Source: Paenibacillus oceani (lineage in GTDB: Bacteria; Bacillota; Bacilli; Paenibacillales; NBRC-103111). From it: a DNA stretch of 64,000 nt. Where the stretch lies: the NCBI RefSeq assembly GCF_014705615.1, contig NZ_JACXJA010000001.1, positions 248,001 to 312,000 of the forward strand, written 5' to 3'. The notes beneath the pieces are model-generated. The model ran no database searches. It had not been told where the DNA came from and was given only the letters and a program-made list of their open reading frames with translations. Shown in pieces: positions 2,414-3,944 of this stretch. Positions within the stretch are counted from its first letter, which is position 1. Each line of letters begins with the position of its first letter. The position numbers were made by a program, and so were the translations under genes.

Positions 2414-2813
2414 CCGTATACTCATCCTTTTTCTTAGGCGTATCCCTAGTAGTAAGTCTGGCTAAAGTATTCCAATAAAAGTATCGGCTTTACCTTTTAG
2501 GCAGCCCCTTTGCGATTACGGGATACAGAATCAGCTCTGACTTGGTACCAGAATACAACAGGAACTATGACAACAGCCTGTCAAGATTTATACAAGCTGG
2601 ACGGGGAAGTGCGGCCCGAACCTCGTTCGATAGCCTCCCCTGCCCTTCTCCTATAGGCCAGGCGCAAGCCGGATTCACTACGGGATCGCGTTACAGAGAT
2701 CAGACTAGTTTCCGCTTTCGGGGCTTGGCTGTTATTTACATCCTGGCTTCCCTATTTTATTATTTATCCAATTACGTAATTACGTAGTTAAATAATTATT
2801 AGGCGGTGGTTGT
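2414..2813. other. 400-bp intergenic region, divergent promoters
   Basis: Non-coding region between two divergently transcribed genes. A short open frame on the plus strand (2542-2787) has no ribosome site and no recognisable product. The distal end is AT-rich and holds the overlapping palindromes described at 2770-2785. Nothing else recognised. Confidence 0.5.
2770..2785. promoter_or_regulatory. Overlapping ACGT palindromes, candidate operator
   Basis: AATTACGTAATT (2770-2781) and ACGTAATTACGT (2774-2785) are both perfect palindromes and overlap. They end 28 bp before the ATG of the ArsR-type gene at 2814. ArsR-family repressors commonly bind AT-rich dyads in their own promoters, so autoregulation is inferred; no binding evidence is available. 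Confidence 0.35.
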
Positions 2814-3944
2814 ATGTCACGAGATTATGGAGCCGAATTGGATGCCGTAAAAGCCGGGCTGAGCGAGCTTCAGCAGCTCGTCAGGCAATGGGTCCAGGCA
2901 AACCCCGGCAAGGCGTCCCCACAAACAGACGTTGCGGAGACCGGCATGACGGTTTCGGCGCAGTTGCAAGAACGGCCGGGCGAAGCGGGAGGCATCTTTT
3001 ATTCCGGCCAATACCGCGGGGAGAAATGGGGATACCGCTGGGAACCCCGGGAGAGACGGGTCAGCGAGCTGCTCGGCCTGGACGGCGACAAAGTGGCCAA
3101 GGTGCTGTCCGCACTCGGGCATAAGCAGCGCCTGGACATTCTCCGGTCCGTGCTGACCGAGCCGCTTACGGGCGCCGAGCTTGTCGAGCGGTTGAACATG
3201 GGCACGACAGGTCAGTTGTACCATCACATCAAAGCACTGCTCGGCGCAAATCTGCTTGTGCAGGAAGAACGCGGAGGACGTTATTCGCTCCCCGGTCATC
3301 GGGCTCTGCCGCTCCTCTTGCTGCTCTCCGCCGCTTCCGACCTGCTCGATACGAGCGATTACATGGAACTGGCCGAGGCGCGGAGCAACGCCGGCGCGTA
3401 TCTAGGCGCAGCTTCCGAGGAATACGATCCTCACCTCCTGCTCCTGGCCGTGGTGGACAATACGATTCTGGAGCATAAGGCCGGATCTTGCACGGAAGCG
3501 AACATCTTCCTGCATGGCGACGGCAGCATCACCGTAGCCGACGACGGCCGGGGCATCCCGGTTCAGGCGCTTCCGGGCACCGACACGCCGGGTGTCCAGG
3601 CTGTTCTGACCCGGATTGTCCAGCGCAGCGACGGAGCTTCCTTTTTTGCGCCGGGCGGGGAGAAAGGCATTAGCATCTCGGTCGTCAACGCGCTCTCCGA
3701 GAAGCTCACCGTCGGGATTCGCCGGGAAGGCAAGTCGTTCCGCCAGGACTACAAGCACGGCATCCCTCAGACCGGCCTCATAACCATAGGAACGACGAAG
3801 GAGACCGGAACCAGCGTCACGTTTCTGCCCGATCCGGACATTTTCCGCGCCTCCTTCTCTCCGGCAAGGCTGAGCGGCCTGGCAGACGAAATATCGGCTG
3901 CATACCCGGGGCTGGCCGTCCGGTTTTATAACGAGGCGGAGTAA
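2814..3944 (+). CDS. ArsR-type winged-helix protein fused to a GyrB-like GHKL ATPase domain
   Basis: 376-residue protein with two recognisable modules. Residues 85-160 form an ArsR-type winged helix (LSALGHKQRLDILRSVL, then LYHHIKALLGANLLV as recognition helix and wing). Residues 205-375 align by eye with the ATPase domain of DNA gyrase B: VVDN at 213-216, DDGRGIP at 243-249, SVVNALS at 289-295, EGKSFRQDYKHGIPQ at 305-319 and TGTSVTF at 331-337. The GyrB catalytic glutamate, four residues before the Mg-binding asparagine, is alanine here (A212), and the ATP-lid GLHGVG motif reads GGEKGIS (281-287). This suggests nucleotide binding without gyrase-type hydrolysis. No gyrase or topoisomerase genes are adjacent, and it is monocistronic. 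A nucleotide-sensing transcription factor is inferred. Confidence 0.8.
   Translation: MSRDYGAELDAVKAGLSELQQLVRQWVQANPGKASPQTDVAETGMTVSAQLQERPGEAGGIFYSGQYRGEKWGYRWEPRERRVSELLGLDGDKVAKVLSALGHKQRLDILRSVLTEPLTGAELVERLNMGTTGQLYHHIKALLGANLLVQEERGGRYSLPGHRALPLLLLLSAASDLLDTSDYMELAEARSNAGAYLGAASEEYDPHLLLLAVVDNTILEHKAGSCTEANIFLHGDGSITVADDGRGIPVQALPGTDTPGVQAVLTRIVQRSDGASFFAPGGEKGISISVVNALSEKLTVGIRREGKSFRQDYKHGIPQTGLITIGTTKETGTSVTFLPDPDIFRASFSPARLSGLADEISAAYPGLAVRFYNEAE

Follow-up and report, generated by a model that had tools for sequence, protein, structure and literature searches.

A family of winged-helix/GyrB fusion proteins in Paenibacillaceae is probably a self-controlled antibiotic sensor built from the antibiotic's own target

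The regulator gene and its protein

The window analyzed here (the whole stretch of Paenibacillus oceani DNA under study, 64,000 nucleotides) carries a gene for a protein in which an ArsR-like winged helix precedes a domain of the GyrB24 type, the ATPase and aminocoumarin-binding domain of gyrase B. The features of the locus are listed below. GyrB residues, in three-letter code, follow the E. coli numbering, transferred through our alignments, and the counts refer to the family of 50 proteins described in the next section.

2735..2740, + strand, -35 element TTTACA (TTTACA-17-TATTAT scores 12/12)
2758..2763, + strand, -10 element TATTAT (same promoter match, 17-base spacer)
2772..2787, + strand, putative operator TTACGTAATTACGTAG, starting 8 bases past the -10 element, with the ATG at 2814
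2814..3944, + strand, ArsR-like/GyrB24 fusion regulator, 376 aa (open reading frame and domain matches)
2814..2903, + strand, N-terminal segment, residues 1-30, probably helical judging by its regular L/Q pattern, with E8 in 50/50
2988..3083, + strand, small conserved segment GGIFYSGQYRG..YRWEPRER, residues 59-90, with a counterpart in the GyrB-less relative L040
3090..3293, + strand, ArsR-like winged helix, residues 93-160, GTTGQLYHHIK nearly invariant (profiles and family alignment)
3294..3368, + strand, post-wing segment, residues 161-185; the GyrB-less relatives L040 and L072-L074 stop just beyond it
3369..3929, + strand, GyrB24-like GHKL domain, residues 186-372, without N-terminal arm or transducer (profiles, solved GyrB match, alignment)
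3447..3449, + strand, A212, at the position of the catalytic Glu42 (Ala 39, Ser 9, Thr 1, Glu 1)
3459..3461, + strand, N216, equivalent to Asn46 (kept in 48/50)
3540..3551, + strand, D243 (Asp73) through R246 (Arg76), each kept in 50/50
3654..3674, + strand, altered ATP lid GGEKGIS, residues 281-287 (His116 changed to Lys in 45/50, Gly119 in 2/50)
3723..3725, + strand, R304, equivalent to the aminocoumarin contact Arg136 (49/50, one Lys, versus 68/85 in GyrB)
3810..3812, + strand, T333, equivalent to Thr165 (kept in 48/50)

The initial annotation had described the ATPase motifs of GyrB behind a DNA-binding domain, and all of them are in place: VVDN at residues 213-216, DDGRGIP at 243-249, SVVNALS at 289-295, KHGIPQ at 314-319, and TGTSVTF at 331-337. 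The best solved match of the protein was a GyrB fragment (E = 6.7e-32), and the GyrB-like domain is 42% identical to the host's own GyrB. The GHKL signature is present, since the Pfam HATPase_c model matched above its cut-off (E = 1.8e-7) and recurred at E 0.001 in 46 of 48 family members. NCBIfam GyrB and ParE models matched with E values down to 3.7e-38 and stayed below their full-length cut-offs because the N-terminal part alone is present: the matches end by position 208 of models that are 639 to 803 residues long, so the protein is not a full-length gyrase subunit with GHKL, transducer, and TOPRIM parts.

The winged helix is ArsR-like. The ArsR label initially given to it is weaker than the GyrB assignment, as the scores of the window's protein lie below the curated cut-offs for HTH_5 (19.8 versus 22 bits), HTH_20 (22.4 versus 27), and HTH_metalloreg (30.9 versus 55), but the matches are consistent in the family: at E 0.001, HTH_20 matched 35 and HTH_5 20 of the 48 members. 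The sole cysteine, C226, lies inside the GHKL domain, and the winged helix has none. On the minus strand of the window, at 1919 to 2425, a free-standing Cass2/GyrI-like effector-binding protein is encoded, with transcription pointing away from the fusion gene; among the fetched loci it has a relative in L010 only (38%).

Distribution and origin of the family

Both the ArsR-like and the GyrB part were found in 50 distinct proteins (58 loci minus 8 exact duplicates), those with names belonging to Paenibacillus or Ammoniphilus. These relatives are 47 to 69% identical to the window's protein, and an architecture common to 50 distinct proteins rules out a chance junction or frame artifact. A scan of 84,980 species with one genome each, which reaches close relatives only, gave 39 two-part loci (38 named Paenibacillus and 1 Ammoniphilus), along with a protein from Saccharopolyspora in which the winged-helix part is present and the GyrB domain is missing. 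Among 59 related genomes the raw query matched in every one, gyrase itself matching, and the fusion was present in 19. In one locus, L059, the match to the fusion starts at residue 56. No published description of an ArsR-like/GyrB fusion was found among the matches listed in a literature search that covered titles and abstract openings and few subscription journals.

A profile of the N-terminal part gave 40 matches among 299 genomes of the phylum, a sample that is thin near the family (four of the window's order are listed besides its own). Eight loci of the 39 matches outside the window (L072-L078 and L089) encode proteins of about 200 to 300 residues without a GyrB domain, and the remaining ones are weaker, in open frames no longer than 230 residues. 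Four of these GyrB-less relatives (L075-L078) have a different, long N-terminal part. The existence of such GyrB-less winged-helix proteins makes the fusion look like an older regulator that gained a GyrB24 domain. In the tree, the GyrB-like domains of the regulators formed one group (support 0.845), which joined 14 GyrBs of Paenibacillales (support 1.0), apart from ParE and two truncated Streptomyces GyrBs, the only outgroups used. One misframed ParE sequence (ParE_L182) stands in the alignment tables and was excluded from the tree.

Identities among regulators were poorly correlated with those among the GyrBs of the same genomes (rho = 0.25, 48 genomes). Gene neighborhoods vary between genomes, and no general conserved neighborhood was found: in a crude comparison based on open reading frames, three neighbor clusters reached 5 of 50 loci. 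Varying neighbors and weak tracking of GyrB are as for a mobile accessory trait, suggesting that the gene behaves like one that moves or is often lost. Carriage by plasmids or phages was not detected, none of the 158 plasmid and 85 phage matching records covering 80% of the fusion protein. Twenty-six of the plasmid records are from Streptomyces. Two Streptomyces linear plasmids (L183:3312-4490 and L184:3432-4601) encode truncated GyrBs of 389 to 392 residues, too short for a TOPRIM domain and with a tyrosine at the Asn46 position; these are possible gyrase decoys.

Residues lost from and kept in the pocket

The pocket was compared over the 50 members, leaving out L060, which is a gyrase, and L040, which has no GyrB domain. 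In gyrase, Glu42, Lys103, Lys110, and the lid have roles in ATP use. The change of the catalytic glutamate to A212, noted at first in the window's protein alone, extends to the family, where only L059 keeps Glu42. Likewise, the lid GGEKGIS is where it was first described, and the lid is altered throughout: the His116 position is occupied by Lys in 45 proteins and by Arg in 3, and Gly119 is kept in 2, although Gly117 is kept in 48. Lys103 and Lys110 are kept in none (Lys103 falls in a gap in 45), and alignment with GyrB showed no N-terminal arm and no transducer.

Other residues are nearly invariant. Glu50, Asp73, and Arg76 are kept in all 50 proteins, Arg136 in 49, and Asn46 and Thr165 in 48; Gly77 is kept too. 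Asp73, Asn46, Gly77, and Thr165 also serve the adenine nucleotide. The important contacts of novobiocin are described as hydrogen bonds to Asp73, Asn46, Gly81, and Arg136 and a cation-pi interaction with Arg76, and a synthetic inhibitor is described as contacting Thr165 (PMC9884090). The aminocoumarin side-chain contacts Asn46, Asp73, Arg76, and Arg136 are thus found in 48, 50, 50, and 49 of the 50 regulators. A fragment of GyrB that lacks a flexible loop (residues 103-122), by our mapping the ATP lid, crystallizes with novobiocin (PMC7556816), and the regulator domain, with its altered lid and intact drug contacts, resembles it.

One explanation for the loss of catalytic residues is that the GyrB domain is a structural relic that merely dimerizes or stabilizes the repressor and binds nothing, as might also be expected from the occurrence of GyrB-less relatives as free proteins. 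We regard this as very improbable, given that the pocket side chains are near-invariant among proteins only 47 to 69% identical to the window's. Not all of the pocket is preserved, however. The novobiocin contact Gly81 is kept in 1/50, Asp49 is changed to Leu in 41/50, and the lid has acquired its lysine, as in a remodeled pocket that now serves some unrelated ligand, for example a metabolite acted on by the methyltransferase described below. Such a change of ligand appears rather unlikely, since the drug-contact side chains have hardly varied and Arg136 has done so less than in gyrase.

Arg136 in the regulator and in the host gyrase

The conservation of Arg136 was compared with that in host GyrBs from 85 of 90 genomes, five being left out (G026 and G364, with a regulator; G007, G057, and G058, without). 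In the single-contig genome G007 the gyrB match is broken across two frames (G007:C1:3220320-3220804), by a frameshift, an insertion, or an assembly error. Arg136 was present in 68 of the 85 GyrBs, the other 17 having Leu (7), Val (5), Thr (2), Asn (2), or Gln (1). Among the regulator-bearing genomes, 39 of 48 had Arg136 in GyrB and 9 were substituted. In the regulator, Arg was found in 49/50, and the lone Lys comes from a genome with Leu at this position of GyrB. The difference was significant against all hosts (Fisher test, P = 0.003) and against regulator-bearing hosts (P = 0.007), kinship being ignored in both. The natural substitutions occur in the window's order and its relatives (L170, L173, L175, L060, L185, L186, L189, and others), and Arg76 is substituted in one.

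This excess is not a general property of the domain, which is less conserved in the regulator than in GyrB (mean 0.66 versus 0.85 over 191 columns). Of 81 columns that share their consensus, Arg136 shows the fifth-largest excess of conservation in the regulator, behind residues L130, T160, L154, and L95, where GyrB varies mostly by conservative swaps. The drug contact thus seems to be guarded in the regulator while gyrase sheds it. The presence of a regulator was not associated with an unsubstituted GyrB (39/48 versus 28/37, P = 0.60).

The initial annotation had proposed a sensor either of the ATP/ADP level or of coumarin-type gyrase inhibitors. In the former case the GHKL domain would bind an adenine nucleotide such as ATP or ADP without hydrolysis, and the regulator would adjust its own transcription to the energy state. 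Nucleotide binding persists in E42A GyrB, Asp73, Asn46, Gly77, and Thr165 are kept, and the conserved new Lys or Arg of the lid (48/50) could hold a phosphate. We nevertheless consider nucleotide sensing unlikely, because the domain lacks Lys103, Lys110, N-terminal arm, and transducer, because there is little use in an energy sensor for which no general target but itself was found, and because Arg136, a drug contact (PMC9884090) whose mutation is reported to confer resistance (PMC7556816), is better kept than in gyrase. The residues that grip and hydrolyze the triphosphate have been lost while the inhibitor contacts remain, with Arg136 stricter than in gyrase itself, and an inhibitor sensor therefore fits the alignments better than an ATP/ADP sensor.

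A putative operator on the regulator's own promoter

The palindromes first noted at 2770 to 2785 correspond to TTACGTAATTACGTAG, placed at 2772 to 2787, with 3 matches within 3 mismatches at this site against 0.13 expected across the whole window. Upstream of the regulator gene, the best match to the motif TTACGTAATTACGTAA was within 2 mismatches in 46/50 promoters and within 4 in 50/50, whereas 1 of 2,500 shuffled sequences had a match within 3 mismatches; the motif was picked after inspecting the promoters, and the control was a simple single-base shuffle. The site lies 38 to 97 bases ahead of codon 3 across the family. A sigma-A-like promoter scoring at least 10/12 was found in 41/50, and in 40 of these 41 the start of the site falls in a range from 4 bases inside the -10 element to 17 bases past it, a place where an occupied operator should block transcription. 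Every member thus has an operator-like site on its own promoter, following TipA-like logic, to which the regulator itself would bind.

No other copy of the operator was found within 1 mismatch in the window's own genome. Two further places at 2 mismatches were discarded, being no more than in the control (3 versus 4, forward strand). The lack of close copies means that there is none at gyrA, gyrB, or parE, and regulation of these genes was rejected. This bears on the idea that the domain has the host's GyrB as its partner or monitors the supercoiling state, with no small molecule involved. GHKL domains do dimerize in gyrase, and an identity of 42% to host GyrB would suit such a link, but the N-terminal dimerization arm is missing, the identities of regulator and GyrB agree poorly (rho = 0.25), and no operator copy within 1 mismatch lies elsewhere in the own genome, so that we hold it to be quite improbable.

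Operator-like sequences were also seen in other contexts. At L124:1501-1600 an exact operator precedes what appears by eye to be the degraded beginning of another copy of the regulator gene, and a transposase-like open reading frame lies within the same 3 kb. In one regulator-bearing genome a tandem operator-like array (L162:1504-1525) lies between aldo/keto-reductase-like and hydrolase-like genes, a single case named by eye. The sequence TACGTATTTACGTA at L156:1501 and 1678 and at L121:1501 occurs within terminator-like hairpins near a transporter-like gene and is unrelated to the operator.

A methyltransferase that shares the operator or the operon

The exact 14-base core of the operator matched in 7 of 59 genomes, five times at the regulator's own promoter and twice at promoters of a single methyltransferase family. 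Two solo methyltransferase genes have the operator, at 0 and 1 mismatch. In four other loci (L033, L035, L036, and L037) the methyltransferase follows 17 to 20 bases 3' of the regulator gene, and of the three neighbor clusters it alone comes immediately after the regulator gene, in the same orientation, in each of its five loci, with a truncated copy in one of them. The methyltransferase promoters of 8 regulator-less genomes had no operator (0/8, best 6 to 7 mismatches). With a degenerate 14-base core, the methyltransferase was the only recurrent promoter target besides the regulator itself across the 50 regulator-bearing genomes. This wider core recovers the own promoter in 31/50, and targets with looser sites may therefore be missed. 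Its other exact matches were set aside, being mostly inside genes or terminator-like hairpins, with some intergenic ones in one genome each (L127 and L128 represent one coding stretch shared by two genomes).

The enzyme belongs to the class I SAM methyltransferases and matches many families, including TPMT and TehB. An intact gene was found in 6/50 regulator-bearing genomes, the methyltransferase also occurs in 8/40 genomes without a regulator, and no member of this family was found in the window's genome at E 1e-30. Decayed copies are present in G030 (internal deletion, beside the regulator) and G357, and in G033 the operator is still upstream (L120) of a weak, short match (E = 0.03). The substrate of the enzyme may be a drug.

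A proposed self-controlled sensor of GyrB-site antibiotics

The fusion family is probably a self-controlled antibiotic sensor built from the antibiotic's own target. In its more specific form, to which we give about an even chance, it is a one-component autorepressor in which a GyrB drug/ATP pocket, captured and incapable of hydrolysis, serves as the sensing domain and would sense GyrB-site antibiotics as a decoy of their target. A dimer of the regulator would bind the palindrome and block transcription. On entering the cell, a natural product that inhibits GyrB at its ATP pocket, whether aminocoumarin-like or of another kind, would bind the GHKL domain, upon which the repressor would leave the DNA. 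Derepression would yield more regulator, which would soak up the drug as a gyrase decoy, and in some genomes a SAM methyltransferase, made from the same operator or the same operon, may inactivate it. Several observations weigh against inhibitor sensing: the kept residues also serve the adenine nucleotide, the lid has gained a lysine, Gly81 is lost, Asp49 is changed to Leu, and L059 has Glu42. In addition, regulator presence shows no link to the GyrB type (P = 0.60), and the methyltransferase is intact in just 6/50 genomes.

Parts of this proposed logic are known from other systems. BlaR1 and MecR1 sense an antibiotic with a domain akin to its target or hydrolase, through a membrane receptor and a protease acting on a separate repressor; the fusion, proposed as another target-related sensor, joins both parts in one protein. 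SimR is a one-component repressor that senses the gyrase inhibitor simocyclinone, as is proposed for the fusion, with a TetR-type pocket that is not gyrase derived. ArsR/SmtB regulators have the winged helix in common with the fusion, which differs from them in scoring under the curated cut-offs, in its large C-terminal GHKL domain, and in having its only cysteine, C226, there. The likeness to GyrB24 lies in 42% identity and the drug-contact side chains, and unlike gyrase the fusion lacks the catalytic Glu, Lys103, Lys110, N-terminal arm, transducer, and TOPRIM and has a DNA-binding domain attached. TipA is described as a minimal, self-regulating system of multidrug resistance, and its class (TipA/AlbA), like the proposed regulator, has DNA-binding and drug-binding domains in one protein that controls its own gene and sequesters the drug (PMC7762955). 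The likeness is one of logic, TipA/AlbA being a MerR-type activator with a TipAS domain (PMC7762955) and the fusion an ArsR-like presumed repressor with a gyrase-derived domain. In CapK/CapS (an HTH-STAS-GHKL kinase and a STAS-winged-helix repressor), HTH and GHKL parts also occur in one protein, and CapK, whose GHKL domain is of the histidine kinase type, is described as using ATP to phosphorylate a separate repressor (PMC13373217), whereas the GHKL domain of the fusion is of gyrase type, lacks the catalytic Glu, and sits on the DNA-binding protein itself.

If this interpretation holds, the drug would be recognized by a copy of its own target, and the sensor would respond to whatever blocks the gyrase pocket, making the fusion a naturally occurring reporter of inhibitors that act at the GyrB ATP site. 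It would also be a possible inducible route of resistance to aminocoumarins, for which, to our knowledge, the established routes are chiefly target change and export. At a wider scale, and with slightly less than even confidence, the family can be seen as a mobile, self-contained resistance device among Paenibacillaceae against GyrB-site natural products, in which a repressor is combined with a dead copy of the target as sensor and decoy and sometimes has a drug-methylating enzyme in its regulon. Soil Paenibacillaceae would then live under steady exposure to GyrB-site compounds, with which the hosts substituted at Arg136 (17/85) would fit.
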